From a virus, in the IMG/VR virus record IMGVR_UViG_3300010399_000304, positions 1 to 26,861 of that record: 26,861 nt of DNA; one strand, written 5' to 3'. This document shows, piece by piece, positions 12,339 to 26,148 of this stretch; position 1 is the first letter of the stretch, and each line of letters opens with the position of its first letter. The notes beneath the pieces were generated by a model. It was given only the letters and a program-made list of their open reading frames with translations, was not told the origin of the DNA and made no database searches. The translations under genes were made by a program, and so were the position numbers.

Positions 12339-12710
12339 TCATTCCGGACGTGCGACGATAGGAATACCATCGATGAATTCGCGTTCGGTGCTTTGGATGG
12401 TCGTGACTTCAACCATCATGCTGAAGTCGCAGGAAATCCGGAGATCGATATTTCGCGGATCGCGGATGGCACTCGATATATTCCAGATCGCGCCGTCCCA
12501 GATAATCCGGTGTGAGGCCGGCGTGATTCCCGGACGATACGGAATCGTGAATTGCACGACGGTCTCCGACTGGCGTAACGGCTCGGCCCATTCCGTGAAT
12601 CCGCCGTTTGCCGTGAGAGCGCTCCAGGTGGTTTGAATGCCGCCATTCGCCAGATTGGTTAGGACACGGCCTTCAAAGGTAATGAGGTCCGTGCGGCGGC
12701 CGGCATTCAC
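12339..12710 (-). CDS. Head-tail adaptor protein (SPP1 gp16-like), 123 aa
   Basis: I start this gene at the GTG at 12710, which overlaps the stop of the glycosyltransferase ahead as GTGA and has AGGG 8 bases upstream. It gives (M)NAGRRTDLITFEGRV, the usual N terminus of this family. A start at the ATG at 12752 would add 14 residues unlike the family and overlap the glycosyltransferase by 46 bases. The body contains ESETVVQF-type strands (RQSETVVQFTIPYRPGITPA, then SHRIIWDGAIWNISSAIRDP), where the Arg-x-x-x-x-Ile-x-Trp-x-Gly-x-x-Trp-x-Ile run is diagnostic of phage head-tail joining proteins. It closes the neck of the capsid. Its normal neighbour, the gp6-like connector, is now 13.4 kb away at 26145. 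Confidence 0.88.
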   Translation of the reverse strand: MNAGRRTDLITFEGRVLTNLANGGIQTTWSALTANGGFTEWAEPLRQSETVVQFTIPYRPGITPASHRIIWDGAIWNISSAIRDPRNIDLRISCDFSMMVEVTTIQSTEREFIDGIPIVARPE

Positions 12711-13375
12711 GGCGTAAACCCTGTCGGCAATCCACCCGTCCAGCGATGCCATTCTTGATGCGAGCGATCATGAATGTTTTTTACCGACGTGTTGCCCGGA
12801 TGAATTCTCGCAACCATTCGTGATTCAGCGTCAATCGAGATCACTGCATTTTCTTGTCGCGCCGCCCTCGAAAACATGCCGTCTTCGCCAGTGTGTTCGT
12901 TCTCCGAATTCGGATCGCGCTCAAACGGATGACGCGACCAGAACTCACGCGTGAATAGCAATGACGTTCCCATTGGAAATTGACTTCGACCTACAAATTT
13001 CCATACGCCGTACTCAGCGGAGTAAAAGAGCAAGCTGTGATATCCAGTGATGCTCATGTGGGATTCTTCTAACAGCTTGACCTGCTCGGCCAGCCTCGTT
13101 GGTGCAGACCAATCGTCTGAATCGAAGTTCGCAATAAGCTCGCCAGTCGAAATCCGTACACCGTGATTTCGCTTTTGCGGAATCGCCAGTCTATCCCTCA
13201 AGATAACGTGGCTCACGTTGGGATACTTTGGCGGAACCGGAAAGGAGACATCGTCCATGTCGTCAACGATAACTAATTCTTTTTCTGGATAAGTTTGGGA
13301 AAGGAAGCACTCCAATGCCTGAGCCGCCCACTGCTGACGGCCCCTCGTTATGAGAATCCCGGAAACTAATTGCAT
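12707..13375 (-). CDS. GT2 family glycosyltransferase, 222 aa
   Basis: The start at 13375 gives MQLVSGILITRGRQQWAAQA, the normal opening strand and loop of GT-A fold enzymes. A GTG at 13411 in the same frame would add 12 residues of non-family sequence. Residues 36-42 (IVDDMDD) bind the nucleotide, 85-88 (DSDD) is the metal-binding DxD-type motif, and 163-170 (GEDGMFSR) is the Glu-Asp acceptor-side motif containing the likely catalytic base. The protein is complete though short for GT2 and has no membrane segment. It should transfer a sugar from a nucleotide donor in the cytoplasm. It is the last accessory gene before the adaptor, which it overlaps by 4 bases, so it is probably co-transcribed with tail genes. 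Confidence 0.88.
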   Translation of the reverse strand: MQLVSGILITRGRQQWAAQALECFLSQTYPEKELVIVDDMDDVSFPVPPKYPNVSHVILRDRLAIPQKRNHGVRISTGELIANFDSDDWSAPTRLAEQVKLLEESHMSITGYHSLLFYSAEYGVWKFVGRSQFPMGTSLLFTREFWSRHPFERDPNSENEHTGEDGMFSRAARQENAVISIDAESRMVARIHPGNTSVKNIHDRSHQEWHRWTGGLPTGFTP

Positions 13376-13377
13376 GG

Positions 13378-13424
13378 TAAAATGAACGAGCCGCCGAGGT
13401 GCTGACAACACCTGCGAGCGGCTC
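13378..13424 (+). promoter_or_regulatory. Extended -10 and leader hairpin ahead of HNH endonuclease gene
   Basis: TGGTAAAAT (13375-13383) reads as an extended -10. GAGCCGC (13388-13394) pairs with GCGGCTC (13418-13424), and inside it AGGTG (397-401 of 13 kb) pairs with CACCT (13409-13413) around a 7-base loop. The hairpin sits in the untranslated leader, 16 bases before the AAGGAG ribosome site at 13440-13445. It is not followed by T residues, so a leader control element is more likely than a terminator. Homing endonuclease genes of other phages are often held back by such leader hairpins. Confidence 0.45.
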
Positions 13425-13450
13425 TAGCCACAACGTCCCAAGGAGACATC

Positions 13451-14212
13451 ATGGGTAAGTTCAAAGATATCACTGGACAACGCTTTGGCCGATTACTTGT
13501 CTTGTCGATCGTTGCAGAAAGAACCAAGCAAAACCGCATTCAATGGCTCTGTTCATGCGACTGCGGCAAGGAATGGACCGTGATTGGTCACAACCTTACA
13601 AACGGCAGACAGAAAAGCTGTCCCTGTCGCAAAAATCAACTTGCCGCTGAACGACATTATGTTCACGGCATGGTTCATAAACGTGAATACAGGATCTGGT
13701 CTGGAATAAAGAAGCGATGCTTTAATCCGAAGGAGCCCGCATACAAGAACTATGGTGAGCGCGGAATTACCATGTGCGACGAATGGAAGAAGGACTTCAT
13801 GGCTTTTTACCGAGACATGGGTCCATGTCCAGACGGATTCACGATTGACCGAATAAATAATGATGGCAACTATGAGCCAGGGAATTGTCGGTGGACTACC
13901 CGCGTAATCCAGAACCGCAATAGACGCGACGTTGTAATGCTTACTCATGACGGAGAAACAATGTCGCTTCGAGATTGGGCAGACCGAATGCACATGAATT
14001 TCGATAAGCTTCGGTATCGATATGAGCACCACATTGAACCGCTATTCGGTAGTGCTCGGAGATTAAGTCCATCTGAACGTGATGAAATCCGCGAGGCGTA
14101 TTCCAGCGGCAAGGAAACCGGCCCAGCCCTCGCTGCAAGATTTAAGGTTGGATGTCAAACGATTTACAATGTGATACATCGAAAGAACATCACTGATCGA
14201 CAGCGTCAGTAA
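13451..14212 (+). CDS. HNH-type homing endonuclease-like protein, 253 aa
   Basis: The gene reads against its neighbours and has a strong AAGGAG ribosome site 5 bases before ATG. Residues 5-60 (DITGQRFGRLLVLSIV, then WLCSCDCGKEW and SCPC) form the small Cys-bearing N-terminal domain of phage HNH proteins. Residues 80-160 hold the nuclease-like core: YRIWSGIKKRCFNPKEPAYK, NYGERGITMCDEW, FTIDRINNDGNYEPGNCRW. The Asp-Arg-Ile-x-Asn-x-Gly-x-Tyr-x-x-x-Asn-Cys-Arg-Trp run is the signature. A helix-turn-helix-like region (MSLRDWADRMHMNFDKLRYR) and a second one near the C terminus (GPALAARFKVGCQTIYNVI) probably read DNA. It is not inside an intron; it stands alone between two glycosyltransferases and overlaps the next gene tail to tail by 23 bases. 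Confidence 0.85.
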   Translation: MGKFKDITGQRFGRLLVLSIVAERTKQNRIQWLCSCDCGKEWTVIGHNLTNGRQKSCPCRKNQLAAERHYVHGMVHKREYRIWSGIKKRCFNPKEPAYKNYGERGITMCDEWKKDFMAFYRDMGPCPDGFTIDRINNDGNYEPGNCRWTTRVIQNRNRRDVVMLTHDGETMSLRDWADRMHMNFDKLRYRYEHHIEPLFGSARRLSPSERDEIREAYSSGKETGPALAARFKVGCQTIYNVIHRKNITDRQRQ

Positions 14213-14873
14213 ATAATCGTTGCGACCAATCAACTGGAATTCCGTAAAGCTCACATAAGTCCCTGGCTGCTGGCTCCCATTTTCCACGGCTAATCGCGCT
14301 AACCAGGTAATTGAGCGGAGTGGGCGAGAGTTTTTCCTTGAACGCTAGTACTGGCTCTTTCAGATCACAGGAATAGATCGACCCATTGATTTCAAAGTCC
14401 GATGCCTCGCCGTGGTCGTGACACTTACTGGCAATCGTATAGAGGTAGGCCGGTTTGAACAGTGAAACCTGACAACTAATTCTATATCGCGTTCCAGGCG
14501 GGACAATTTCGAAGTAGGGATCGCCGTAACGTTCAATTCCTCCAGGGCACGGATAAAGCCGAACGCATCCTGCATCATAGATATTCATCTCCTGTAATCC
14601 ATGATCGATCAAGTCTTGTCTTACAGGACCCGTAAGGAAAAAGTCGTCCTGAAAAAGCAAAATGGTCTCTTTCGCTTCCTTCGCATATCCCGCGAGGATC
14701 TGACACCACGTCTTTCGTCCGCCTTGATACACGTCGGCGCCGTAGCTCTCACCGCACCATTCATCCGTCACAATCGTCACTTCCGGATGCGTCGGCCAGA
14801 ACTTATCGAGCAGATAGAAGAACGGCAATAGCGCATCCCGATAGGCCCAGCACGTAGCAACCGCTAAGCGCAT
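14190..14873 (-). CDS. Phage DD-motif glycosyltransferase-like protein A, 227 aa
   Basis: The N terminus MRLAVATCWAYRDALLPFFY is a first Rossmann-type strand and helix as in GT-A enzymes. The segment DKFWPTHPEVTIV (23-35) and the metal-site-like stretch ILLFQDDFFL (71-80) recur in the proteins at 16377 and 20015, making the three a paralogous set. The second half (RYGDPYFEIVPPGTRYRISC, then QVSLFKPAYLYTIASKC) would carry acceptor determinants. Relatives in other tailed phages are mostly annotated as hypothetical. I infer a sugar-transfer role from the fold pattern and context; the donor and acceptor are unknown. The start overlaps the sugar dehydratase stop by 10 bases. Confidence 0.72.
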   Translation of the reverse strand: MRLAVATCWAYRDALLPFFYLLDKFWPTHPEVTIVTDEWCGESYGADVYQGGRKTWCQILAGYAKEAKETILLFQDDFFLTGPVRQDLIDHGLQEMNIYDAGCVRLYPCPGGIERYGDPYFEIVPPGTRYRISCQVSLFKPAYLYTIASKCHDHGEASDFEINGSIYSCDLKEPVLAFKEKLSPTPLNYLVSAISRGKWEPAARDLCELYGIPVDWSQRLFTDAVDQ

Positions 14874-16138
14874 CGCAGATAAGAATCCATATTGCTGAGC
14901 AGTCCCGCCAATCCGCTCATCGATGTTTCAAAGGGTGGAAGCCCCACATAAAAGCCGCGATCGTGTAGCGCATTCGCTCCAGGCAATGCCGTTGCTGCCA
15001 TGTTCGGATACTTCCAAAACGCCGGGTGCCTCATGAGATTTCCGCCGACGATCGGCCGAGTATCGACTCCGTACTGTTTCAAATACCGCGCCGCATCGCT
15101 TCGCGTGTAGGGCATCTTTTCTTTAATCACGAAGGGCAGACCAAACCATGCAGGCGTGGCTTTGTAGCTCGTCGGCATCAAGGCTTCTACGGTGTGCTCG
15201 TTCGTTGTTCGAAACTGATTCGCAATCGCCATCGCGTTCGTCTCGCGCCATCGGTTCATCGTGTCGAGTTTTTCGAGCTGTACCTGCCCCATCGCGCCCT
15301 GAAGTTCCGTTGGCCGGAAGTTAAACCCCATCGCGAGAAATAAATAATGCGGATCATCCACGCATCCATACCGCGTCAGAACATCAACATCGTTCAGCCG
15401 ATAGCGCATGTCACGGGCCCAGCCATGAGCGCGCATCAATCGACAGCCTTCCGCAAACTCCGCACTCTCTGTCGTGATCATGCCGCCTTCCATCGTCGAT
15501 ATGTGATGCGAGGCGAAGAATGAAAACGCGGCGGCCGTTCCGAAAGTTCCCACCTTATGACCATCAAACTCCGCACCGAGGGCTTCGCAGCAGTCCTCGA
15601 AGATCAACAGCTTGTGGCGGTCGGCGAGTTCTTGAATCGCGTCCATCTCGCATGGATTGCCCATCAGATGCACGAGGAATATCGCTTTCGTCTTTGGTGT
15701 GATGGCCGCTTCAAGAATCGCCGGCGAGGTGTTCAATGTAGACACTTCCACATCAACGAAGCGCACCGAGAATCCCGCCTCAATTGCCGCCCATGCCTGC
15801 GTCGGCCAAGTGACGGCCGGAATCAGAATCTCATCGCCGCGCTGGAGCATTCCCAGTTCACGCGCCACGAGCATCATCACGAGGTCTGCCGAGCTGCCCG
15901 AGTTCACCATCACGGCCCGCTGAGATCCGAGATAGTCGCCGAATTGCCGCTCAAAGTCTTCGACCTTCGTCCACATGGTCGTCATGCGATCGCAAAGACA
16001 ATCCAGCGCCGCTAAGATTTCATCCGCCGTCCAAGTGACATAGCCGAGCGGATAGGGATAGGTCGGCGCCGGTGCTTGCGCGAGGCGTTCTTCAATCATC
16101 TCTCGTAGCAAGACGGGATGGGCTTGAGCATAGATCAT
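14864..16138 (-). CDS. ColD/E1-like PLP-dependent sugar 3-dehydratase (DegT family), 424 aa
   Basis: The start at 16138 forms a TAATG overlap with the small gene ahead; longer in-frame starts would overlap that gene heavily. The fold is DegT/DnrJ/EryC1/StrS: NSGSSADLV (79-87) is the cofactor-phosphate loop, AVTWPTQAWA (108-117) stacks on the cofactor, and EDCCEALGAEFDGHKVGTFG (181-200) carries the Asp for the pyridine nitrogen. At the position of the cofactor-binding Lys the protein has His: SFFASHHISTMEGG (206-219), with H211 in the Lys place. That substitution marks ColD and CDP-sugar E1 dehydratases, which remove the C3 hydroxyl instead of transaminating. The substrate is probably an NDP-4-keto-6-deoxy sugar supplied by the host. 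It could feed the glycosyltransferases around it. Confidence 0.85.
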   Translation of the reverse strand: MIYAQAHPVLLREMIEERLAQAPAPTYPYPLGYVTWTADEILAALDCLCDRMTTMWTKVEDFERQFGDYLGSQRAVMVNSGSSADLVMMLVARELGMLQRGDEILIPAVTWPTQAWAAIEAGFSVRFVDVEVSTLNTSPAILEAAITPKTKAIFLVHLMGNPCEMDAIQELADRHKLLIFEDCCEALGAEFDGHKVGTFGTAAAFSFFASHHISTMEGGMITTESAEFAEGCRLMRAHGWARDMRYRLNDVDVLTRYGCVDDPHYLFLAMGFNFRPTELQGAMGQVQLEKLDTMNRWRETNAMAIANQFRTTNEHTVEALMPTSYKATPAWFGLPFVIKEKMPYTRSDAARYLKQYGVDTRPIVGGNLMRHPAFWKYPNMAATALPGANALHDRGFYVGLPPFETSMSGLAGLLSNMDSYLRCA

Positions 16139-16380
16139 TAAGCTTTTCTTAATCCGAAATAGCGTAGATCGCTGTTGGTCGGATGGCTCCATGACAGCGT
16201 ATTTGAATGACCTTTTGGGCAAACGCTACTTGTGAGAACTAAGCCCACATGTGAATCCCACGCCTTGTCTTGATTCTTCTTTGATCCGCATGTCGCGCAT
16301 ATACCAGACTTTTCCAGCCTAGCGATTTCGCGTAAGCGCGGACACTTCGGCGAGTGTGGTATATGGCCGCAGCATTTCAC
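16138..16380 (-). CDS. Small zinc-ribbon-like protein, GTG start, 80 aa
   Basis: The GTG at 16380 overlaps the stop of the glycosyltransferase-like gene ahead (GTGA), and its own stop forms TAATG with the dehydratase start, so it is held in a tightly coupled chain. The product has paired Cys/His ligands: CCGHIPHSPKC (3-13), CATC (28-31) and CPKGH (54-58). This looks like one or two small zinc knuckles joined by a helix (LREIARLEKSG). No family is recognised. The basic character and metal ligands would suit RNA, DNA or protein binding. Its job in a sugar cassette is unclear, and it may be a passenger gene. Confidence 0.6.
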   Translation of the reverse strand: MKCCGHIPHSPKCPRLREIARLEKSGICATCGSKKNQDKAWDSHVGLVLTSSVCPKGHSNTLSWSHPTNSDLRYFGLRKA

Positions 16381-17087
16381 AGAAACGCCTCGATCCCCGG
16401 CACGCCCACGCAGAGATTCTGCAAGACGTCAATCGGTCGCATTCTTCCTTCCAGCACCGCATCATTCGCCAAGCACGTCAGAAACGAATCGCCGCCGTTA
16501 CCTCCAGGGAGTGGCCGATGCACGCCCATCATGCGCTCGGGCCAGTTCTCGGCATTCATCGTCAGTAGCGTTCCTGTCATTTCAAATTCAATCGCACCGT
16601 TTCTTCCAACATCCCGTGCAGGACCAATCTCGGAAAGCACCGCACTCGATAAGCGATGCAACCATGTGCGACGGTAGAGTGTCGGGACCAAGTTTGTTCT
16701 CTTGAACGGATGGTGCGCCCGATCGTATTCGCGGATACGGTCCCAGTCGGGAAACTCAAGCTCAGGAGCATGTGCCGCGCCCGCCTGAAGTTTTACTAAT
16801 GCGATGTCAGGCAGTTCGTTCATCATCAAGATAACGCAGCGCAGACCTTCGAAGTCTAGCGATGGCTCGATAAAATTGTCGTCCAACACCAGCAATACAA
16901 ATTGTTCTGACAATGTATTTAGTAACGTGATGAGATTCGCATTCCACCCGAGGTCTATCTCAGGAGATAGGACCGTAACGGGAAATGGACAGTCCGGCCA
17001 GCTTCTCTTAAAGCAGTCCCACCAGATTTGCTGAATCGGTGCGCGACGAGGACACGAAACGACAACGAGGCGAGTGTCGAGGCTCAT
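16377..17087 (-). CDS. Phage DD-motif glycosyltransferase-like protein B, 236 aa
   Basis: The ATG at 17087 overlaps the stop of the preceding small gene (ATGA). The protein shares the layout of the enzymes at 14190 and 20015: an N-terminal strand (TRLVVVSCPRRAP), then KRSWPDCPFPVTVL (27-40) equivalent to their FWP segment, and FVLLVLDDNF (63-72) in place of the DDF box. The second half includes YDRAHHPFKRTNLVPTLYRR and the C-terminal GVHRPLPGGNGGDSFL, absent from the other two, so acceptor specificity probably differs. No membrane segment is seen. It is a likely cytoplasmic sugar transferase, inferred from fold pattern and neighbourhood rather than from a named family. Confidence 0.7.
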   Translation of the reverse strand: MSLDTRLVVVSCPRRAPIQQIWWDCFKRSWPDCPFPVTVLSPEIDLGWNANLITLLNTLSEQFVLLVLDDNFIEPSLDFEGLRCVILMMNELPDIALVKLQAGAAHAPELEFPDWDRIREYDRAHHPFKRTNLVPTLYRRTWLHRLSSAVLSEIGPARDVGRNGAIEFEMTGTLLTMNAENWPERMMGVHRPLPGGNGGDSFLTCLANDAVLEGRMRPIDVLQNLCVGVPGIEAFL

Positions 17088-17254
17088 TCCTTTTCGCGTC
17101 GTTCAATCTCGGCAAGTAGCAACCGAGCGCGCGCTACTGCGGATTCAATTAAATCCTCTTCCGACATATGGTCATTCGGGTCCATGTGATCTAAGGTCTC
17201 GGCAAAGATCAAGGCGCTTGCCTGAAGCAATGCGTATTTCCGCTCGGCGGTCAT
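17084..17254 (-). CDS. Small acidic helical protein, 56 aa
   Basis: A short frame whose stop overlaps the next start as ATGA. It encodes MTAERKYALLQASALIFAET, an acidic middle (LDHMDPNDHMSEEDLIESAV) and a charged helix ending LLLAEIERREKE. The ATG at 17254 is separated by only 17 bases from the plus-strand start at 17272, so the two genes diverge from one very short region. On the minus side TATGAA lies about 9 bases before the ATG and could act as a weak -10. The helical content and coupling suggest a real gene. The family and function are unknown. Confidence 0.6.
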   Translation of the reverse strand: MTAERKYALLQASALIFAETLDHMDPNDHMSEEDLIESAVARARLLLAEIERREKE

Positions 17255-17258
17255 TCGC

Positions 17259-17264
17259 TATACT
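17259..17264 (+). promoter_or_regulatory. Putative -10 box for plus-strand gene at 17272
   Basis: TATACT ends 7 bases before the ATG at 17272, which would place the transcript start at or one base before the start codon. There is no Shine-Dalgarno sequence in the intervening TCATAAA. The -35 region is not recognisable. Confidence 0.4.
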
Positions 17265-17271
17265 TCATAAA

Positions 17272-17493
17272 ATGAAATGGGATGAACTCACCAATACTAT
17301 TGCTAAAGGCGTCTACCGTATCGAGATGGCCGACGGCTTCATTCCTCCAGAGGAGGCAGATGCACGTTGGGAGCAACTGATAGCCCAAGAGAAGGAGCGC
17401 GGCTTCGGCTCCGGCCCGTATGTCGAGATCAGGCGATATGTCGGCTCAGCGTTGATTGTCATGAACAAGATGGGTCTTATCGATTACGACTAG
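17272..17493 (+). CDS. Small plus-strand moron protein, 73 aa
   Basis: This gene runs against its neighbours between two small minus-strand genes. It begins MKWDELTNTIAKGVYRIEMA, followed by an acidic helix (PPEEADARWEQLIAQEKER) and the C-terminal GSALIVMNKMGLIDYD. It is soluble with mixed alpha-beta character and has no recognised family. Its stop TAG overlaps the stop of the convergent 58-residue gene within CTAG (17490-17493). There is no ribosome site; a TATACT box 7 bases upstream suggests a leaderless message from its own promoter. That would let it be made independently of the late operon, as morons in prophages are. Confidence 0.62.
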   Translation: MKWDELTNTIAKGVYRIEMADGFIPPEEADARWEQLIAQEKERGFGSGPYVEIRRYVGSALIVMNKMGLIDYD

Positions 17494-17666
17494 CACGTCA
17501 GCCCTAATCGCTCGGCAATCACTTTCGCTTCCGATCGGAATCGTCGCGCGAGTTCGACGGCAACGAGATATTGAGCTTGTAAGTCCGCCGCGTCAGCTTC
17601 ATACGCCTCGGCTTGTTCCTGAAGATCGGCGAAGGCGTCATAGTCGGAGATTTGATCGGGTGTCAT
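17490..17666 (-). CDS. Small coiled-coil protein, 58 aa
   Basis: A frame starting one base after the previous stop (17668) encodes MTPDQISDYDAFADLQEQAE, then AYEADAADLQAQYLVAVELA and RRFRSEAKVIAERLGLTC. The spacing of Leu and Ala residues indicates a continuous amphipathic helix or coiled coil. It is acidic in the first half and basic in the second. Its stop overlaps the stop of the convergent plus-strand gene. Close packing on both sides supports it as a real gene, but I recognise no family. Confidence 0.55.
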   Translation of the reverse strand: MTPDQISDYDAFADLQEQAEAYEADAADLQAQYLVAVELARRFRSEAKVIAERLGLTC

Positions 17667-17667
17667 T

Positions 17668-17907
17668 TCAACTGACGGTTACGTGTGAACAGCTAATCTC
17701 CGGGATGTTTACTTTCACGTCTGGTGCGCTAGTGGTCACAGTGCCTGTCGATGAATATGCCGTAACCCATGGCGTTGAGTATGTCAGATATGGCTGATAC
17801 AGATTCCATTCCTGTCCGCAGTCCACACAGTACGGACGATCACAATGAGAACAATATTTCATGTGCTCGTGCTTACAATGCTCGTGCTTGTGGCGATGTT
17901 GATTCAT
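17668..17907 (-). CDS. His/Cys-rich metal-binding small protein, 79 aa
   Basis: The ATG at 17907 has an excellent AGGAG ribosome site immediately upstream and overlaps the end of the exostosin-like gene by 35 bases. The first 17 residues (MNQHRHKHEHCKHEHMK) contain six His and one Cys. They are followed by YCSHCDRPYCVDCGQEW, two CxxC pairs that resemble a zinc ribbon or treble clef. The remainder is Thr/Ser/Tyr/Val-rich (LYQPYLTYSTPWVTAYSSTG) and ends PEISCSHVTVS, possibly a beta-strand tail. Strong zinc or other transition-metal binding is likely. No family is recognised and its role in the cassette is unknown. Confidence 0.62.
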   Translation of the reverse strand: MNQHRHKHEHCKHEHMKYCSHCDRPYCVDCGQEWNLYQPYLTYSTPWVTAYSSTGTVTTSAPDVKVNIPEISCSHVTVS

Positions 17908-18826
17908 ATTCTCCTCTCGCTTCTAATTTTTTGGTCACTGCGTAACTCATAATCTCCGGCCAGCGCCGCGCATCCAGATACTTGAGCCAGTAATGCCGCG
18001 CTTCTAACCCGCGATCGATCAGTTCGTGGTCGGCTTTCCCGTCAAGGTAAGCCAAGGCCGCAGCATCCGCCTGGGAAGCATCTCGGCTTTCAACGCGGAT
18101 GATGAAATCGTCATAGGGTATCTCGGTTGCGAACGGAAGGACGTAATCGCTCGACACGAGCAATGGAATCCGGCCCGCACTCATCGCTTCAAAGAATCGG
18201 TACGGCAGCACGCCAGGAATCGACTCGGGACACAGTGCTAATCGGCTGTCTCTCATGCTCCGGCGAAACGCTGCACGGCGCCGCGTGTATTCGGGATCTT
18301 CTGGTTTACGGTATCCGAAGAAGTCCGTGTATTGCGCAATGTCTGCTTTAAGCTTGGGATTATCCAGGCACGCATTCGAGGACGCCGTGCGCGTATCCGT
18401 GGACAACCATCCGTGGAAGCTAATGTCATGAATGAAGCCACGATCCGGCAGTTCCATACATTCGGCATAATCTTCGACGGGCCACGCGATTTGAATTGTT
18501 CCCGGATCGTGCGGCAGCATCCACGTTCGGGCATCGCACTTGAGAAACAGGATCGGCAGACGAATCGCCGCTTTGAAATTGTCCGAGCAATCGAAGAAGA
18601 CGTGACGCGATTCATTACCAGCGAAGTACGGAAGGCTGTAGAGCCTCGCGTGATCCAATATGCCAGTACCCGCCGTTGCTTCAAAGAGCCGGATGTTGCC
18701 AGGACAAACGAAGATGTCGGCGGAGTGTGGATCATCCGTGATCTCGATGCCTTCGAGTCTCAGTTCACCGGATGGCCACTGAATTAGCCCGATGTGTTCA
18801 GGCTTGTAGATGAATTGTCGAAGCAA
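17873..18826 (-). CDS. Exostosin/GT47-like glycosyltransferase, 317 aa
   Basis: The C-terminal half carries the exostosin-type donor domain: SRLALCPESIPGVLPYRFFE (194-213), then AMSAGRIPLLVSSDYVLPF (214-232). In this family the Glu-Ala-x-x-x-Gly-x-x-Pro-Val/Leu segment lies at the nucleotide-sugar site. The N-terminal half (SADIFVCPGNIRLFEATAGT; RHVFFDCSDN) is the acceptor-side domain typical of bacterial GT47-like enzymes in surface-polysaccharide and phage loci. The start overlaps the GT8-like stop by 29 bases. There is no signal peptide or membrane anchor, unlike eukaryotic exostosins, so it should act in the cytoplasm. Sugar and acceptor are not deducible. Confidence 0.8.
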   Translation of the reverse strand: MLRQFIYKPEHIGLIQWPSGELRLEGIEITDDPHSADIFVCPGNIRLFEATAGTGILDHARLYSLPYFAGNESRHVFFDCSDNFKAAIRLPILFLKCDARTWMLPHDPGTIQIAWPVEDYAECMELPDRGFIHDISFHGWLSTDTRTASSNACLDNPKLKADIAQYTDFFGYRKPEDPEYTRRRAAFRRSMRDSRLALCPESIPGVLPYRFFEAMSAGRIPLLVSSDYVLPFATEIPYDDFIIRVESRDASQADAAALAYLDGKADHELIDRGLEARHYWLKYLDARRWPEIMSYAVTKKLEARGEYESTSPQARAL

Positions 18827-19643
18827 CAGTTTCTTGTGCGCGAGAGACTGCGGCGAAGTAAGGCGCGTAAATGTATTTCACGTCTTCATCGCGCAGTTCG
18901 TAATTCGTCAGACGTTGACCATGCAGATATTCATGGTAGTGGTAGAACACGACGTCGTTGCCATCCACCTTTGGCCCTTCGGTCAGTGTGTAATGCGCGA
19001 GATTCCACGGCGCCAGACCCGCGCCGATGTTTTCAATCACGCAGAGTTCATCGCCGTACTTTACTGGAAATTCGTCCAAGTATTTCTGATCGCCACACCC
19101 GATCTTTGCCGAGCACCGCTCACGACACTGCGCTGCCCATGTCGACAGACACTCGCGGCCGACGTCGTTATTCTTGAACGTGACCCACGACACATTGAAT
19201 TGCCCATTCACTTCAAGATGCTTCTTTGAAGGGATGAGACGGTGCGGAATTACGGCAATGGAACGGTCGCCAATCTCGTCGAAGATCACTTTGGGATCAC
19301 TGAAGAAATAGCAGTCGGCGTCGATATAGGTAAGATGTTCCAAATACCAAGGATCGTCCACGTCCTTATCTGCCCAATCCATTACGTCTTCCGCCAAATT
19401 TGAAGCACACGTCCAGCAAAATTCCTGCCAAGTTCGATCTATTCGCTGATTCAGTAGAAAGGAGCGACCGTCCATCGGTAGGACGTTCTGGAAATTCAAC
19501 GACTGGAGCGTCCGCAACGTTTCAGTATCCATCGCAAGAACGCACAGTGTAAAAGCTTCGCTCGAATGCTTCACCAGCGAATCATAGAGAGCCAGGCCTT
19601 GCGGGAGATATTTTGAATCGAATAGGGTGCAATAATGACGCAT
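18798..19643 (-). CDS. GT8-like nucleotide-sugar transferase, 281 aa
   Basis: Starting at 19643 the protein begins MRHYCTLFDSKYLPQGLALY, the usual opening of a bacterial group related to GT8. A start 18 codons upstream would overlap the divergent gene and add unlike sequence. The metal-binding DxD is D108-x-D110 in YIDADCYFF (106-114), followed by SDPKVIFDEIGDRSIAVIPH and QFNVSWVTFKNND, all typical of the group. The last 90 residues hold CGDQKYLDEFP and ENIGAGLAPWNLAHY, acceptor-side motifs of the family. It is cytoplasmic and inferred to transfer a sugar, perhaps to a protein or growing glycan. Its start codon lies in the same CATG as the start of the divergent plus-strand gene. Confidence 0.82.
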   Translation of the reverse strand: MRHYCTLFDSKYLPQGLALYDSLVKHSSEAFTLCVLAMDTETLRTLQSLNFQNVLPMDGRSFLLNQRIDRTWQEFCWTCASNLAEDVMDWADKDVDDPWYLEHLTYIDADCYFFSDPKVIFDEIGDRSIAVIPHRLIPSKKHLEVNGQFNVSWVTFKNNDVGRECLSTWAAQCRERCSAKIGCGDQKYLDEFPVKYGDELCVIENIGAGLAPWNLAHYTLTEGPKVDGNDVVFYHYHEYLHGQRLTNYELRDEDVKYIYAPYFAAVSRAQETVASTIHLQA

Positions 19644-19875
19644 GGCCAATGATCGGCTATATATCGTTTGCAAGTTCTGCAATGAAGGCTTCGCCATTGC
19701 GAAACATTACGACGGGCCATGGTTCACTACCCGTCGTTCTCCAGAGCAACTGAATGAGTTTCTTGGCAAGCATTATCTCTGTAAGGGCGATGACGCCGCG
19801 AATTGGTGGCCGCATGACTGCTTTATATTAAAGCGTGAGAGCGACGAGGATTTCGACAAGATCACGTTATTTTAA
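19642..19875 (+). CDS. Small Cys/His-rich moron protein, 77 aa
   Basis: This plus-strand gene encodes MANDRLYIVCKFCNEGFAIA, then KHYDGPWFTTRRSPEQLNEF and LGKHYLCKGDDAANWWPHDC. The CKFC pair, the His-Tyr-Leu-Cys and Trp-Trp-Pro-His-Asp-Cys segments make a plausible single zinc site. Proteins of this layout (Cys-x-x-Cys-Gly/Glu-x-x-Phe-x-x-Ala-Lys) are familiar as small unannotated proteins of phages and environmental genomes. No Shine-Dalgarno precedes the ATG; AATAAT at 19631-19636 ends 5 bases before it, a -10-like spacing that suggests a leaderless message. The divergent GT8-like gene starts in the same CATG (19641-19644). Confidence 0.7.
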   Translation: MANDRLYIVCKFCNEGFAIAKHYDGPWFTTRRSPEQLNEFLGKHYLCKGDDAANWWPHDCFILKRESDEDFDKITLF

Positions 19876-19914: not shown

Positions 19915-19919
19915 CGCTT

Positions 19920-20010
19920 GTCTCTGTGTCTCTTCCTGCAAAGGTCCCATATCGAAGCCAAGCATGGAATTAGGCAAGACGTATTGTGTGGTCCATGGGG
20001 ACACAGAGAC
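19920..20010 (+). ncRNA. Candidate small structured RNA closed by an 11-bp terminal stem
   Basis: In the 139-base gap between the plus-strand gene ending at 19875 and the convergent gene ending at 20015, GTCTCTGTGTC (19920-19930) pairs perfectly with GACACAGAGAC (20000-20010). Three more wobble or Watson-Crick pairs extend the stem inward. Inside, GCC/GGC and CCATAT/GTGTGG pairings can form. The left arm begins at the start predicted from the TATAAT box at 19909. A 22-codon frame (19964-20032) lies within but has no good ribosome site. The alternative is that the repeat is only a protein-binding or recombination site. Confidence 0.35.
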
Positions 20011-20014
20011 CTTA

Positions 20015-20716
20015 CTACACCTGCGAGGGTAGGCGGCTCCACGCATCCCAGTGTGGGAACTTGCCGTCCCATAACGGCCGCCGCGTCATATCCAGATCGA
20101 TTCCCATCTTGGCCACCAACGCCACTGTCTCTTCCCGCCATTGCGCTTCGGCGGCAGCATTGATGCGTGAGAAGACGTGAACCGTCGCATATGGGCATAA
20201 CACATCCCAATGCGATCCAATCTGATTGGCGTTCAGTTCCCAATAGGTCATGCCGATAATTCCCGCATCCTGCTCTTCGGTCAGCCGGGAACCGATATTC
20301 TCGGTGATCTCCAACATATACTGCCGACGTGTCAGGAACGCACCTTCGGAACTTCTGTCGGAGTCGCGAATGTCGATATGTCGAAAGCCTGGGAGCTCGG
20401 GACAATCCGCGCCGGTACTAACGCAGGGAAGTAAATGAATCGCTCCGACGGATTTGTTATTCAAGATGTGCTCATAGGCGCGATCAATCGCTTTTTGATC
20501 CACGCCGAGTGGCCAGAAATCATCAATCGCCATCATCAAAACTTCGTCCGGTATCGATTTCAAATACGACGTGATTCTTTTACTGTATGAGCCTTCGGGA
20601 TGACCCGCGATAACGTCGATAGGCCATGGTCTGTCGGGCCAGAATCTTTCGGCGAACTTGATGAATCCTTCAACGATATCATCGCGTCCGTCTGTTGAGA
20701 GAAGGGAGATTCTCAC
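20015..20716 (-). CDS. Phage DD-motif glycosyltransferase-like protein C, GTG start, 233 aa
   Basis: The GTG at 20716 yields (M)RISLLSTDGRDDIVEGFIK, a first strand like that of the proteins at 14190 and 16377. AERFWPDRPWPIDVI (22-36) matches their FWP segment and EVLMMAIDDFWPL (58-70) holds the paired Asp. The second half (AIHLLPCVSTGADCPELPGF, then GAFLTRRQYMLEITENIGSR) resembles the acceptor half of protein A. It probably transfers a sugar; the exact chemistry is unknown. The gene lies next to a divergent plus-strand gene, with a symmetric TATAAT element in the 26 bases between. It ends opposite the candidate RNA region. Confidence 0.72.
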   Translation of the reverse strand: MRISLLSTDGRDDIVEGFIKFAERFWPDRPWPIDVIAGHPEGSYSKRITSYLKSIPDEVLMMAIDDFWPLGVDQKAIDRAYEHILNNKSVGAIHLLPCVSTGADCPELPGFRHIDIRDSDRSSEGAFLTRRQYMLEITENIGSRLTEEQDAGIIGMTYWELNANQIGSHWDVLCPYATVHVFSRINAAAEAQWREETVALVAKMGIDLDMTRRPLWDGKFPHWDAWSRLPSQV

Positions 20717-20728
20717 GCTATCGCCTGC

Positions 20729-20736
20729 ATTATAAT
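20729..20736. promoter_or_regulatory. Symmetric -10 element for divergent transcription
   Basis: ATTATAAT contains TATAAT on the plus strand (20731-20736) and TATAAT on the minus strand (20734-20729). The plus hexamer ends 6 bases before the ATG at 20743. The minus hexamer ends 12 bases before the GTG at 20716. One element could thus drive both genes, as described for bidirectional bacterial promoters. Confidence 0.45.
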
Positions 20737-20742
20737 TGACCT

Positions 20743-20856
20743 ATGGAACAGGAAGAGATGACTTGGCTGCGCATGATCGGCGCGATTCTGACTTGTACCG
20801 CACTGTATGTGGTATGGGCACTTTTTCTCGGCTGGGTTTTCCTGTCAGGCCTGTAG
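20743..20856 (+). CDS. Single-span membrane peptide, 37 aa
   Basis: A plus-strand frame encodes MEQEEMTWLRMIGAILTCTA, then LYVVWALFLGWVFLSGL. An acidic 5-residue head precedes one long hydrophobic helix (about residues 12-37) that ends almost at the C terminus. The charge distribution suits an inner-membrane peptide with the N terminus inside or a small bitopic regulator. It has no Shine-Dalgarno but a perfect TATAAT 6 bases upstream. It fills the gap between divergent and convergent minus-strand genes (13 bases from the next stop). Phage small membrane peptides include exclusion factors, holin-like proteins and host-signalling modulators; nothing here decides which. Confidence 0.6.
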   Translation: MEQEEMTWLRMIGAILTCTALYVVWALFLGWVFLSGL

Positions 20857-20869
20857 CATCTTGCGATTC

Positions 20870-21139
20870 TCACGCGGCTTCACGTTCCTCGATATACTGC
20901 TGCGCGAATTTCCACTCACGCATCAATCCCGGTCCCAGTTCGGATTCTTTCAACAGCCAATACAGCTCCACTACGGATCTAGCGAAATCCTCCGCGGCTT
21001 CACCGAAAGACCGGCCTGTTCCGAAAAGAGAAAGCGGCCGAGACCATAGGAAGATCTCATCGCCGAAACGTTTTTCCATCACCGGGATCGCACGACGCAG
21101 TCTTAACCGTGGATCACGGATCATGCCGAGTTTCTTCAT
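20870..21139 (-). CDS. Uncharacterised helical protein, 89 aa
   Basis: The start overlaps the oxidoreductase stop as ATGA. The protein begins MKKLGMIRDPRLRLRRAIPV, is basic over its first third, and then has acidic helices FGEAAEDFARSVVELYWLLK and ESELGPGLMREWKFAQQYIE. It has no Cys cluster, signal or membrane span. I do not recognise the family. Its coupling to the oxidoreductase suggests co-expression, but it may simply be a passenger. Confidence 0.6.
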   Translation of the reverse strand: MKKLGMIRDPRLRLRRAIPVMEKRFGDEIFLWSRPLSLFGTGRSFGEAAEDFARSVVELYWLLKESELGPGLMREWKFAQQYIEEREAA

Positions 21140-22149
21140 GCGGACCTCGACTGAAGCGCCGATTCAAGAACGCGCTGCACATCAAGACCGTCGCGAAATG
21201 ATGGCCGTGCTTGCTTTCCTGTCAGAATCCAATCAATGAATCGTTGCACAATCTGAGATGCCGGCCGCACCCGACAATCGACACCCGTTTCTTCCGGTTC
21301 GCTGATCGGATCGCCTGCGGCCTCGTGGCCTTTGTGATGCTGTAGCGTGAAGCCGTATACCGGATTCTCCGTGGCATTGGATAACACCAGGGTCCCAGCA
21401 GTTCCTAGAATCTCAACGGAATGTCGCGCCGCCGTGGGACTCCCCGAACTCACCGTGAGCGTTCCCGCCGTTCCGTTCTCAAACGTAATCATCAGCGTCG
21501 CGATCGTGTCTCCCGAATGCCGATAGTCGAAAGGCTTGGTGACTCTAGCAGTAACAGAGGCGATCGGGCCAAAGAACCATTGAAGGTAGTAAATCATGTG
21601 GCTGCCGTAATGCGAGAGCGCACCGCCACCAGAACGCGCGTCGGTTCTCCACGTCGTAGCGTTATGGCGATGATCGGCACTCCAGAATATCCATTCCGCC
21701 GCAATGTGCAGCGGAGTACCGATACAACCTTGACTCATCAGTTCTTTTGCCTTCGCAAAAACAGTCAATTCCGGGAATAGAAAATCCACGACATTCGCCA
21801 CTCCGCATGTCTCCGCCACGGTCACGAGGGTTTCGGCCTCGGCAAGATTCGCCGCCAATGGCTTTTCGGCAAACACGGGCTTTCCGATGGAGAGTGCCCC
21901 CATAGCAATATCCGGTTGAAAGATTGGCGGTGTCGCAATGGCAACCGCATCCACCTCGTCACAGCGAACCAGCTTTTCCCAGCACGCAAATGGACGAGGG
22001 ATGCCCAGTCGTGAAGCTGCCCGCACGGCCGTTTCTGGGGATGTTGTGGCAATCGCGGTAACTTCGCATCGATCATCGCGCCGAAAGGCTGGCAGCAGTC
22101 CATAGCTTCCAAACCCCGCACCAACGATTCCGATTCGTATCCTGTCCAC
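21136..22149 (-). CDS. Gfo/Idh/MocA family sugar oxidoreductase, 337 aa
   Basis: The N-terminal Rossmann domain has the dinucleotide loop GIVGAGFGSYG (7-17) and AVAIATPPIFQPD (68-80). The catalytic-type segment GKPVFAEKPLAANLAEAETL (89-108) contains the conserved Glu-Lys-Pro. The C-terminal alpha/beta sheet domain includes GGGALSHYGSHMIYYLQWFF (174-193), where the His residues are in the usual substrate pocket. The length is normal for the family. Members oxidise or reduce sugars and cyclitols, including NDP-sugar 3-ketoreductases of deoxysugar pathways. With the ColD/E1-like dehydratase in the same cassette, a step on a keto-deoxysugar is a reasonable but unproven role. The GTG start lies 3 bases after the methyltransferase stop. 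Confidence 0.87.
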   Translation of the reverse strand: MDRIRIGIVGAGFGSYGLLPAFRRDDRCEVTAIATTSPETAVRAASRLGIPRPFACWEKLVRCDEVDAVAIATPPIFQPDIAMGALSIGKPVFAEKPLAANLAEAETLVTVAETCGVANVVDFLFPELTVFAKAKELMSQGCIGTPLHIAAEWIFWSADHRHNATTWRTDARSGGGALSHYGSHMIYYLQWFFGPIASVTARVTKPFDYRHSGDTIATLMITFENGTAGTLTVSSGSPTAARHSVEILGTAGTLVLSNATENPVYGFTLQHHKGHEAAGDPISEPEETGVDCRVRPASQIVQRFIDWILTGKQARPSFRDGLDVQRVLESALQSRSA

Positions 22150-22152
22150 TCA

Positions 22153-22860
22153 TCAGACCGGATGGTGCATGAGATGTTTTTTCTCTAACAGATACGTGCG
22201 ATACCCGCCTAACTCAGTCACTGCGGAATAGACATCCGTCGAATAGATCAGCCGCAAGCCAGAGTCCGCGAATAATTCCAGCAACTCCGCTTCGCTGAAA
22301 TGGATTTCCAGACATGGCTTACCATAAGCTGTCTTTTCAAAATACGTCGTCGCGTCAAATCGGATGGGCGTCTTGCTGAAGATCGCATAGCGTGAAGTGA
22401 CGCGCGCCGTCTCGCGGATCACCTGCCCGTAATCGAGAATGTGCAGCATGCAGCAGCCGCTCAACACGATATCGAAAGCATCATGCGCATAGGGCAACTG
22501 TCTGGCGTCTCCAAGATCAAATCTAATACCGGGATAGAGTTCCTCTGCCAATTCCTTAAACGTCGGCGAGAAGTCGAGCGCCGTATAGTCGAAATCGTAT
22601 CCTGCAATCTTTAAGACTTCGCTGTAATAGCCTGCGCTCGCCCCGACATCGAGTAGCGATACCTTCGGCCCGAACGAGATCTGACGCAAGCAGCGAATCA
22701 GCGCATTGAACGGCGGAACCGATATCCCCTTACGGTAGTTGTCGAGTTCGCGGCTTGCAATTTCGTATTGCAGCTTTGGGATATCTGGATCCTTCCAGGC
22801 GTTCGCATGTTCTGCTGCAACAATGACCGCCTCTAACGGATCGATCCTGCGGTAGTCCAT
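22153..22860 (-). CDS. Class I SAM-dependent methyltransferase, 235 aa
   Basis: The ATG at 22860 forms a TAATG overlap with the stop ahead, which I prefer over longer starts at 22911 and 22884. Motif I is VSLLDVGASAGYYSEVL (67-83), with the SAM-binding Gly-x-Ser-x-Gly variant. LDFSP (95-99) is the motif II acidic turn. GDARQLPYAHDAFDIVLS (117-134) holds the post-II Asp and post-III strand. The C-terminal half includes YFEKTAYGKPCLEIHFSEAE, with SEAELLELF as in small-molecule and sugar methyltransferases. It is likely to methylate a sugar hydroxyl or carboxyl group of the glycan, but the substrate is not evident. Confidence 0.85.
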   Translation of the reverse strand: MDYRRIDPLEAVIVAAEHANAWKDPDIPKLQYEIASRELDNYRKGISVPPFNALIRCLRQISFGPKVSLLDVGASAGYYSEVLKIAGYDFDYTALDFSPTFKELAEELYPGIRFDLGDARQLPYAHDAFDIVLSGCCMLHILDYGQVIRETARVTSRYAIFSKTPIRFDATTYFEKTAYGKPCLEIHFSEAELLELFADSGLRLIYSTDVYSAVTELGGYRTYLLEKKHLMHHPV

Positions 22861-23138
22861 TATGCTGGACACGGAGATTCCCATTCCTCGCGCGGTCTTA
22901 TCGCCTGCCATGCGGCATTTTCTTCGTCAGACAGCCAATACTTTGTTAGTGCATGGATATCGACCTGCCGTATATATCCATCGGGCGAATAAATATGAAC
23001 TTCTACCAACGACCATTTGCTGTATTTAAGCTCCGCCCAAGCGGTTTTTGCATACCGTGTAACTACGCACTGACCATCGATATAACGCACTTCGCTAGGT
23101 TTTGCTAAGAGGCTACGCACAACATCTCCGCCACGCAT
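22860..23138 (-). CDS. Uncharacterised small protein, 92 aa
   Basis: The frame is coupled to the methyltransferase by TAATG. The start is uncertain: ATG at 23138 is used here, GTG at 23159 overlaps the gene ahead, and GTG at 23120 has the best ribosome site (GGAG, 5 bases spacing). The product from residue 13 on (KPSEVRYIDGQCVVTRYAKT, then AWAELKYSKWSLVEVHIYSP) looks beta-rich, with a central Tyr/Trp-rich sheet and a helical C terminus (SDEENAAWQAIRPREEWE). No family is recognised. It may be a small accessory protein of the neighbouring transferases. Confidence 0.55.
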   Translation of the reverse strand: MRGGDVVRSLLAKPSEVRYIDGQCVVTRYAKTAWAELKYSKWSLVEVHIYSPDGYIRQVDIHALTKYWLSDEENAAWQAIRPREEWESPCPA

Positions 23139-23146
23139 TCTGTCGC

Positions 23147-24232
23147 TTACGCGGGGCACAGCACCCCCGTCAGTACTTCCGATACTTTCTGCATTCGCTT
23201 GGCGTAGGTGTGATCGGTCAGCGTTCGTTTCTGCCCATTCGCCGCAATCGTCACCCGTTCGTCGTAGTGCTTGAGGTAATGCTGAATCTTGTGGACTGCA
23301 TGCGCAGGTGTCAGGTACGTCTGGACTTCATTCGCTTGAAACATTTCCCAGACATTCTTGCTCTCTTCCGTAAGTAGCATTGCGCCGCAGCCAGTGCTTT
23401 CGTATACCCTCATGCAATTGGTGTAGCCTTCCGCGACCTCGCCATGACGATTGATACATATCTTCGACTGTAGAAGAATCTCGTACATATCAAGGCCCCA
23501 CGCTTGCCCCTGATACTTCTGCCGAAGAAGCGAATCCGCTGGCAGTGTCTCCACGCCATAGCCCCACCATTTGAATGTCGGTATTTCGCGCGCGACAGTT
23601 TCGAGCACCTGCATTCCGTACGTCCAGTGACTCGGATTGCCGACACCGCCGATAAACACGCAGTCGTGAATGCGTTTTAATGCGTCAGGATAGCCGGTAT
23701 ACCGCCGTTCCCACTGCTTGCTTACTAGCTTGTGTATCGCCTCAAACTCAAATGCCAGCGGATTGTACACGGCACGAACGCCGAGCACCTCGATGCGCGG
23801 GACGTAATGCGGAAACGACGTGAAGATCAAATGAAACTCACGAACGCGCTCATCTCCCGCCCATGGACACGAATGCTGTGCGACCAACAGATACGATTCG
23901 CGCAACCGATGCAGCGTGGACACGCTAAAGAACGAGAGGTCCTGCACGAAGACAACATCGGGCGCGAAGGCTGCGATTTGGGCGAGAGCAATGTCTTCCA
24001 GATCCCTCGACGAGACATTGTTTTCCATCGCCCAGTGTTGCTGGAGTTCCCAAATATTCGCGATGATGTCGATGGCTTCCCAGCCTAATTGACGCAAATT
24101 GCGCGTCACAAAGTCGGCTGTTCCGAATTGGCGAGCGAGAATCTTGTCGAGTCCTACTTGATAACCTTCGCTACAAACAGGCATCGCTTTTACTGCTTCA
24201 GGATAGTAGGTATCGACGCAGACAAGCCGCAT
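23147..24232 (-). CDS. GT1/CgeB-like glycosyltransferase, 361 aa
   Basis: The ATG at 24232 overlaps the preceding stop as TAATG; an in-frame start at 24268 would add 12 atypical residues. The N-terminal domain contains MRLVCVDTYYPEAVKAM and PDVVFVQDLSFFSVSTLHRL (91-110), a beta-alpha unit of the GT-B fold. The C-terminal domain carries CVFIGGVGNPSHWTYGMQVL (191-210), then EILLQSKICINRHGEVAEGY (251-270) and TNCMRVYESTGCGAMLLTEE (271-290). The Met-Arg-x-x-Glu-x-x-x-Cys-Gly-Ala segment is the signature of the CgeB-like glycosyl-transferase 1 subgroup. It is cytoplasmic and presumably adds a sugar to the cassette's glycan or protein target. Confidence 0.85.
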   Translation of the reverse strand: MRLVCVDTYYPEAVKAMPVCSEGYQVGLDKILARQFGTADFVTRNLRQLGWEAIDIIANIWELQQHWAMENNVSSRDLEDIALAQIAAFAPDVVFVQDLSFFSVSTLHRLRESYLLVAQHSCPWAGDERVREFHLIFTSFPHYVPRIEVLGVRAVYNPLAFEFEAIHKLVSKQWERRYTGYPDALKRIHDCVFIGGVGNPSHWTYGMQVLETVAREIPTFKWWGYGVETLPADSLLRQKYQGQAWGLDMYEILLQSKICINRHGEVAEGYTNCMRVYESTGCGAMLLTEESKNVWEMFQANEVQTYLTPAHAVHKIQHYLKHYDERVTIAANGQKRTLTDHTYAKRMQKVSEVLTGVLCPA

Positions 24233-25419
24233 TACCCAATCACCTGCAACTTCAATTCGTCTGTCCAATGATGCACCACGTCGAGCGCCTCTTCGTTTTC
24301 ATAGAACCATTTTCGCAGATACCGCGCTTCTTCATGCCGGTTCGGTCCCGTCCGATATAACCGCGATGTGATCTTTTGCACCGTGGAATCTCGTAGCGTC
24401 TTCATGTAATCGCTGTTATTGCGGATGAATATGGGCGGTCCACCATTCGCGGGATTCGGCAGTGTTTGCCAGCGATGATCTTCCTCCTCGCCGCAGAACA
24501 TCATTTCCTTGAACGTGGACGGTAAGACGACGGTTCCACGTTTCGCAATACGACTGAGAGCCGCCGCCGCACGTTCAGGATTTGGAACATGTTCAAGCGC
24601 ATGACTGCACCACACGTAATCGAACGCTTTATCCGGAATGTCCGATAATCCTTCCATCAGATTGCCGATGATGACTTGCTTGCCTTGCTCCTGAAGTGGT
24701 CGCAAATTGTCCAAATTGCAATCCAGATAGGTATTTGCACGAGGATGCGGGTAGGCTCCCGGCCCCACATCAAGAACGCTCCAGCTATCGGGAATCTCGG
24801 GAAGCTTCACGTAGTCTCGAGGTGCGCGTGGTCCGGGTTTCCGAAAGTTTAGACAAAAAGCAGGAAACCAGTGAATGTTTGGCTCCTCAGCTTCTAAAAC
24901 GAAACCATGGCTTTCGACTAAGGCAGTCAATCGCTCTCTCGAATATCCGCACAGGTGATAGCCAAACTCATTACGTCGAGGACCGAGCAGATGCCTTTCA
25001 TAGAACGCATCGCCGGTTTGACGTAATAGCCGAACGGTCTCGGTATGGTCCGGAACGTCGATACGCAGAATGCCGTTCGGTTCCATGATCTCATCAATCG
25101 CGTCGAGTGCTTTGTGCGCCTCGCCAATAGACAGATGCTCGAATGCGTGCCTTGTGAGGACTTCCGAGACGGACCAGTAGGCCGCAGGGATGTTGTCGAA
25201 GCTACCATAGGCATCCACGACCATCTCTTGCTCAAGCGGTCCTTGACGCAATCTGTCGATGGTTTTGTCCTGATGCTTGCCGTAATAGTTACTTTCGGAA
25301 GTCTGTAATTTCTCGACAAGATCCGGCCTGTCGGACGCAAGAAAGATGTTAGGGCCGCGCACATCGATATTGACGTAATCCGTCAGATATACCGAGCCAG
25401 CCCCAATATGGATTTTCAC
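24232..25419 (-). CDS. Double-domain SAM methyltransferase, 395 aa
   Basis: The GTG start follows the glycosyltransferase stop directly (TAAGTG). Two class I methyltransferase units are fused. The first spans about residues 1-190: MKIHIGAGSVYLTDYVNIDV, then LTRHAFEHLSIGEAHKALDA and EPNGILRIDVPD. The second spans about 208-395: WSVLDVGPGAYPHPRANTYL, IIGNLMEGLSDIPDKAFDYV, then WCSHALEHVPNPERAAAALS. Both have the His-x-Leu/Phe-Glu-His segment of sugar and small-molecule methyltransferases. The first lacks a complete Gly-rich motif I (HIGAGS only), so it may be reduced to substrate recognition. The fusion suggests two methylations or one active plus one scaffold domain. It sits between two glycosyltransferases. 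Confidence 0.83.
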   Translation of the reverse strand: MKIHIGAGSVYLTDYVNIDVRGPNIFLASDRPDLVEKLQTSESNYYGKHQDKTIDRLRQGPLEQEMVVDAYGSFDNIPAAYWSVSEVLTRHAFEHLSIGEAHKALDAIDEIMEPNGILRIDVPDHTETVRLLRQTGDAFYERHLLGPRRNEFGYHLCGYSRERLTALVESHGFVLEAEEPNIHWFPAFCLNFRKPGPRAPRDYVKLPEIPDSWSVLDVGPGAYPHPRANTYLDCNLDNLRPLQEQGKQVIIGNLMEGLSDIPDKAFDYVWCSHALEHVPNPERAAAALSRIAKRGTVVLPSTFKEMMFCGEEEDHRWQTLPNPANGGPPIFIRNNSDYMKTLRDSTVQKITSRLYRTGPNRHEEARYLRKWFYENEEALDVVHHWTDELKLQVIG

Positions 25420-26148
25420 TTACCGAACCGCTTCCGGCCTCATACCGTGACTCCACGTCTCACCGCCGCTCGTGTCCACGCGATATTTCTGATAGGTCGC
25501 TGTCCATTCGGATTGCAACGGCATGTACTTTTTACACAGGATGTCGTTATCGTTGCGTTGCGTCAGTTCGTTGGCACAACGGATCTCGTCTTTCTGAACG
25601 TGATGCAACACGCGGGCCGTGGGGATATCGGCAATACCGTAGTCGGCTAATAAGATCCGAAACGCGAAGCTGTTATCACCGCCATACATTCGGATGTCTT
25701 CATCGAAAAACCCAACGTCCTCACCGAGCAAGCGCGGGAAGATTCCGAAGTTCGCGTACACGCAACCCCATGCGGAATTCACATGAAACGGCCCACCATT
25801 TTCGGAATAGTGCAGGGCGCCGAGTCCGATATCGGGATGCGCTTCCATGAAGGCGATGGCTTCTAAATCGTAATTCGGCAAGACTTCCGCGTCGTCATTC
25901 AGGAACAGTATCCATTTTCCTTTCGCTTCACCGAACGCTCGGTTGTATCCGCGAACGTGTCCGAGTCGCGGCTTCTCATGAATCACGCGCACATTCCGCC
26001 ACTCGGAGACGTAAGGGATTTCAGAAGCATCGCTGACGACGAGTTCCCAGTTCACCTTCGTATGCAGCACAATCGAGCGCACCAATCGCGCGAAGGATGG
26101 ATCGCGTTCGACTTTCCCGGTAACGAGACTCAATAACGGTTTAGTCAT
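25420..26148 (-). CDS. GT2 family glycosyltransferase, 242 aa
   Basis: The start overlaps the head-tail connector stop as ATGA, so this accessory gene has been spliced tightly onto the head module. The GT-A signature runs from LLSLVTGKVERDPSFARLVR, VNWELVVSDAS and RLGHVRGYNRAFGEAKGKW (61-79) to LFLNDDAEVL (81-90), where N-D-D is the DxD-type metal site. The acceptor-side motif is MYGGDNSFAFR (154-164), with Gly-Asp in place of the more common Glu-Asp. The product is soluble with no membrane anchor. It probably makes the first or an early transfer of the cassette, but the sugar cannot be read from the sequence. Confidence 0.86.
   Translation of the reverse strand: MTKPLLSLVTGKVERDPSFARLVRSIVLHTKVNWELVVSDASEIPYVSEWRNVRVIHEKPRLGHVRGYNRAFGEAKGKWILFLNDDAEVLPNYDLEAIAFMEAHPDIGLGALHYSENGGPFHVNSAWGCVYANFGIFPRLLGEDVGFFDEDIRMYGGDNSFAFRILLADYGIADIPTARVLHHVQKDEIRCANELTQRNDNDILCKKYMPLQSEWTATYQKYRVDTSGGETWSHGMRPEAVR

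Follow-up and report, generated by a model that had tools for sequence, protein, structure and literature searches.

The head-tail connector and head-closure genes of the phage studied here are separated by a cassette of twelve enzyme genes, all of which are under purifying selection, and the same place in the neck is a recurrent insertion or exchange site for glycan cassettes. Judging from gene content and position, we lean towards the reading that the cassette is expressed late and uses host nucleotide sugars to build a methylated glycan with deoxysugar, which most likely decorates virion proteins. The window we analyzed is a complete IMG/VR record, a linear viral fragment of 26.9 kb. We compared it with a 66.7 kb relative, IMGVR_UViG_3300010403_000025, and with a wider set of phage and prophage loci.

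All the main genes of the window are on the minus strand, in the order collagen-like protein, connector, cassette, head closure, tail tube, tail chaperone, HK97 gp10-like protein, tape measure and tail-region proteins. The left border of the cassette is a gp6-like head-tail connector (26145..26456; PF05135 2.7e-8, phrog_40) and the right border is a gp16-like head closure protein, Hc1 (12339..12710; PF05521 1.8e-9, phrog_25), so Pfam and PHROGs confirm both neck genes at the positions proposed in the preliminary description. Directly upstream of the connector is the C-terminal end of a collagen-like protein that has a CBM5/12-like motif (26453..26857; Pfam CBM_5_12 and Collagen), for which the complete gene is found in the 66.7 kb relative (L012:6706-7827, 373 aa). 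The HK97 gp10-like neck protein (10225-10662, minus strand) comes after the tail chaperones and just ahead of the tape measure, not before the tail tube. Two tail-region proteins (2596-3570 and 4274-5917) have N-terminal hydrophobic stretches that resemble secretion signals, which is unusual for virion proteins. An Rfam search of the window gave no match, hence no known intron or riboswitch family, and a search of phage records for DNA close to the window also gave no match. Related portals were found in Pseudomonas, Pantoea, Sphingopyxis, Acinetobacter and others.

Between the connector and the head closure there are twelve enzyme genes and about seven small ORFs (~20 ORFs in total), which agrees with the earlier count of about twenty genes. 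The left border is a 4-base overlap, ATGA, of the connector and the gene at 25420, and the right border is a 4-base overlap, GTGA, that depends on a GTG start at 12710 for the head-closure gene; with this qualification, the overlaps that had been described at both borders are there. Many junctions inside the cassette overlap or abut, and there are also gaps of 153, 317, 235 and 778 nt. The 778 nt gap is occupied by an HNH endonuclease gene in the opposite orientation (13451..14212, plus strand; phrog_374 1.2e-69). The preliminary content list had all twelve enzymes, but it missed this mobile gene and the recurrence of the site in related phages.

Going from the connector towards the head closure, the cassette starts with a GT2-family glycosyltransferase (25420..26148; PF00535 1.7e-12), a two-domain methyltransferase (24232..25419; PF13489 in two stretches) and a CgeB-like glycosyltransferase (23147..24268; PF13524 2.2e-24). 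These are followed by a 99 aa ORF that is unmatched in the 66.7 kb relative (22860..23159), a further methyltransferase (22153..22911; PF08241 2.3e-13), a Gfo/Idh/MocA sugar oxidoreductase (21136..22149; PF01408 and PF22725) and a small conserved ORF of 89 aa (20870..21139; 96% identity in the relative). Two putative transferases (20015..20716 and 18798..19697), an exostosin-like GT47 glycosyltransferase (17873..18826; PF03016 3.6e-11), three small ORFs of 79, 58 and 56 aa (17084..17907; the latter two 95-98% in the relative) and another putative transferase (16377..17087) come next. The last part holds a ColD/RfbH-type PLP sugar 3-dehydratase (14864..16138), a putative transferase (14190..14873), the HNH gene, and a GT2-family glycosyltransferase (12707..13411; PF00535 1.5e-13) that overlaps the head-closure gene; all of these genes except the HNH gene are on the minus strand. 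The two methyltransferase genes with three domains and the oxidoreductase, whose PDB relatives include the sugar 3-ketoreductase 3rbv, are as previously described.

Eight glycosyltransferase-type genes had been claimed. Four have Pfam support (25420, 12707, 23147 and 17873), namely two GT2, one CgeB-like and one exostosin-like. The other four (20015, 18798, 16377 and 14190) have no match in Pfam, NCBIfam, PHROGs or PDB and show only DD/DxD-type or DAD motifs, and we call them putative transferases. Three of these align with each other and may be of GT-A type (20015, 16377 and 14190); the one at 20015 has a conserved DD, is 99% identical in the 66.7 kb relative and has a dN/dS of 0.02. The fourth, at 18798, has the DAD motif and may be GT8-like. 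AlphaFold models of two of the orphan transferase families were poor (pLDDT 38 and 47) and Foldseek gave no significant match. Homologue searches for 18798 and 14190 returned the 66.7 kb relative alone.

What had been described as a sugar dehydratase can be refined to a PLP-type 3-dehydratase. Its frame is open from 16222 and encodes 424 aa from an ATG at 16138. It matches the DegT fold over its full length, and its best PDB matches are ColD (2gms, 2e-67) and RfbH (3bcx, 7e-57). A histidine at the position of the PLP-binding lysine of aminotransferases is the hallmark of 3-dehydratases such as these, and here His replaces that lysine, with SHHISTMEGG aligned to SHHIATMEGG of ColD. The enzyme is thus like ColD, the GDP-4-keto-6-deoxymannose 3-dehydratase, and RfbH in its PLP fold and catalytic His, but it is encoded in a phage late operon without 4,6-dehydratase or ColC partners, and a Gfo/Idh oxidoreductase is present instead. 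We searched the window and the 66.7 kb relative for its pathway partners (4,6-dehydratase, ColC or E3 reductase) and found no PF16363 or PF00483; the host could supply them.

Among other phages we found seven ColD homologues, of which six have the His motif and the seventh has Gln; several are beside portal, terminase or capsid genes. One is near a portal identified by profile (L107), and those in L111-L113 are near apparent terminase, portal or capsid genes, judged by position and sequence only. In two phages a GDP-mannose-dehydratase-like gene, recognized by eye, adjoins the ColD-like gene. The ColD-like genes of L107 and L109-L113 have the catalytic His, and some adjoin putative 4,6-dehydratase or epimerase genes.

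In the 66.7 kb relative the twelve enzymes are all present at the same border, and their order is unchanged. Its connector is 98-99% identical to that of the window and its head closure 90%. Since dS between the two is about 0.3-2 for most genes, the relative is a separate virus rather than the same assembly recorded twice. In the same comparison, dN/dS is 0.02-0.21 for the twelve enzymes, which overlaps the range of the virion genes (0.01-0.16). The HNH gene is absent from the relative, where its flanking cassette genes overlap. At the right border the relative has a 50-aa hydrophobic ORF between the last transferase and the head closure, and it has its own inserts within the cassette, an IS1595-family transposase and a Vsr-like endonuclease (L013:2860-3849; L012:11255-12145), neither of which is found at those positions in the window.

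We observed several other features in this relative. Its tail tube and tail chaperone genes are separated by a gene that is related to the HNH gene of the window (L013:7525-8562); the window has none at that place. Its prohead protease and major capsid protein are apparently fused in one 691-aa frame (L012:2033-4108), with a 650-aa homologue in the empty-site phage described next. The tail region encodes one more methyltransferase (PF13578; L014:13049-13597), and an HTH gene that looks like a repressor is present, as is an excisionase-like gene.

In IMGVR_UViG_3300045947_000369 (L020) the site is empty, with the connector stop and the head-closure start 2 nt apart. This phage is a more distant relative, with identities of 59% in terminase, 61% in portal, 46% in connector and 39% in head closure. 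Related prophages of Pseudomonas, Pantoea and Sphingopyxis show a 4-base overlap of connector and head closure, and in the annotated phage Shpa the DNA-packaging connector adjoins the head-tail adaptor. The cassette therefore does split genes that are normally adjacent, as the preliminary description held. That description had also called for a comparison of related phages at this exact border, and the cassette is present in one and the site is empty in another. We considered misassembly or joined host DNA as the origin of the cassette, and the collinear relative together with the empty site rules this out.

To look at the site more broadly, we collected 80 viral and 17 genome loci with a portal profile and then used iterative profiles for the connector, head closure and cassette families. 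The connector was recognized in 74 entries, which include the window, the 66.7 kb relative and near-identical contigs and are not independent events. The head closure follows within 60 nt, with no enzymes, in 30/74. Enzymes lie between the connector and the head closure in nine entries (one, L033, with a doubtful overlapping ORF), and in thirteen, one of which is the 66.7 kb relative, enzymes come directly after the connector and the stretch ends before the head closure. The remaining 22 fall in none of these classes. Since the connector is directly followed by glycan or methyltransferase genes in 22 of the 74 loci, with differing contents, we conclude that this is a site of repeated insertion. 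We found no description of it in the open-access literature.

The nearest relatives at this site (L028-L030) have a GT2 homologue at the same place with 44-52% identity, and L029-L030 also carry a two-domain methyltransferase and a radical-SAM gene. A small gene of 112-124 aa, weakly like the fibre-tail adaptor PF23148 and absent from the window, lies between the connector and the GT2 gene in two of them (L030:7156-7530; L029:5317-5655). In more distant phages, a second block of MptE-like, GT8-like, GT9, methyltransferase and further putative transferase genes recurs between connector and head closure, and in some phages beside the portal or downstream of the head closure. For several families of this block the Pfam matches are weak. 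These related phages suggest, but do not prove, that phages with genes at this site decorate their own particles with sugars.

The twelve enzymes look soluble, as hydropathy predicted no transmembrane segments in any of them. The GtrA flippase (PF04138) was absent from the 12 records tested, with a positive control. Because the window is a 26.9 kb fragment, we re-tested absences on the 66.7 kb relative. GDP-mannose dehydratase and nucleotidyltransferase families were missing from both genomes, each of which may be incomplete, and the controls were positive. It had been noted earlier that the cassette lacks a nucleotidyltransferase and a 4,6-dehydratase, and we found none in the window or the relative; the missing families support the proposal that host nucleotide sugars are used.

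We believe that the cassette may work as follows. It sits in a siphovirus-type late operon, where it was inserted between connector and head closure, and would be transcribed together with the virion genes; the border overlaps and co-directional genes fit the late co-expression that had been proposed. Its soluble enzymes would draw on host nucleotide sugars, one of which the ColD/RfbH-type dehydratase would turn into a 3-deoxy sugar, perhaps with the Gfo/Idh reductase acting next. Several sugars would then be transferred in sequence and some of them methylated. The product would most likely be attached to virion proteins in the cytoplasm to give a glycosylated particle, as in the mycobacteriophage Corndog. 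Such a coat might shield the particle from host or environment or tune adsorption, which is speculative. Compared with the empty-site phage, we found no C-terminal or Ser/Thr-rich acceptor extension in the major capsid protein (of the 66.7 kb relative) or the tail tube (of the window). We also considered the collagen-like protein as a BclA-like Thr-rich acceptor and rejected it, as its repeats are charged, with few Thr, and Ser/Thr-poor.

The main rival holds that, in infected cells or lysogens, the cassette alters the polysaccharide of the host surface, in the manner of superinfection exclusion or seroconversion, by using host lipid carriers and a host flippase. O-antigen clusters typically combine deoxysugar, glycosyltransferase and methyltransferase genes, both ColD and RfbH are themselves O-antigen enzymes, and cytosolic enzymes could equally make a lipid-linked unit that host proteins flip; the excisionase-like and repressor-like genes of the 66.7 kb relative hint at temperate ancestry. 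However, the cassette is within the virion operon and not beside lysogeny genes, and relatives hold such gene sets in the head-neck region. The gtr O-antigen clusters of temperate phages also consist of phage-borne glycosyltransferases, but the window has no GtrA flippase or membrane transferase, a far larger enzyme set and a late-operon position. We consider remodeling of the host surface rather unlikely. The preliminary description had named the virion as a plausible target with the host surface as the alternative; the virion is now the better supported of the two. We take virion proteins as the most likely acceptor, given how the genes are arranged in the late operon, the apparent solubility of the enzymes and the precedent of Corndog.

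DNA is a frequent target of phage glycosyltransferases (literature cited in PMC12619734), so the cassette might instead hypermodify the phage genome with sugars to evade restriction. We did not find a thymidylate-synthase-like (PF00303) or DNA C5-methylase (PF00145) gene in the fragmentary genomes of the window and the 66.7 kb relative, with positive controls; in a Tet_JBP search, the positive control gave no match. Up to eight transferases and a deoxysugar enzyme are also more than is usual for DNA, and we think this explanation highly improbable. It is improbable, too, that the genes are selfish or neutral cargo, swapped at a tolerant site with no defined phage role. The content does vary among relatives, and the cassette has mobile genes in or beside it (HNH, IS1595-type transposase, Vsr-like), but all twelve enzymes are under purifying selection and their order is kept in a relative at a dS of about 0.3-2.

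To our knowledge, only for a few mycobacteriophages have experiments demonstrated that phage enzymes glycosylate the virion; the primary paper, Freeman et al. 2023, is cited through PMC12363180. The precedent from actinobacterial phages that had been invoked for the cassette holds. Corndog, a Cluster O mycobacteriophage, has an O-methyltransferase and three glycosyltransferases within its virion operon, between the portal and the protease (PMC4351075), and virion glycosylation in mycobacteriophages by phage enzymes is cited in PMC12363180. In both Corndog and the window, glycosyltransferase and methyltransferase genes are co-directional inside the virion structural operon. Corndog's virion proteins are reported to be glycosylated (PMC4351075 and PMC12363180). 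Corndog has four genes (gp35-gp38) between portal and protease, whereas the window has twelve enzymes between connector and head closure, adds a deoxysugar dehydratase and an oxidoreductase, and belongs to another phage group. This comparison with Corndog covers gene content and position.

The novelty lies in how large the cassette is, in its deoxysugar enzyme, in its location in the neck at a site that is cleanly empty in a relative, and in its recurrence with varied contents outside mycobacteriophages. Tentatively, the head-neck boundary may be a recurrent glycan-cassette exchange site across a broad metagenomic group of tailed phages akin to proteobacterial prophages; if so, virion glycosylation would be common outside actinobacteriophages and could include phage-made deoxysugars. 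A large, selected and exchangeable cassette at a fixed neck position, shared by many related phages, offers concrete loci and an empty-site comparison for asking how widely, and why, phage particles are sugar-coated.
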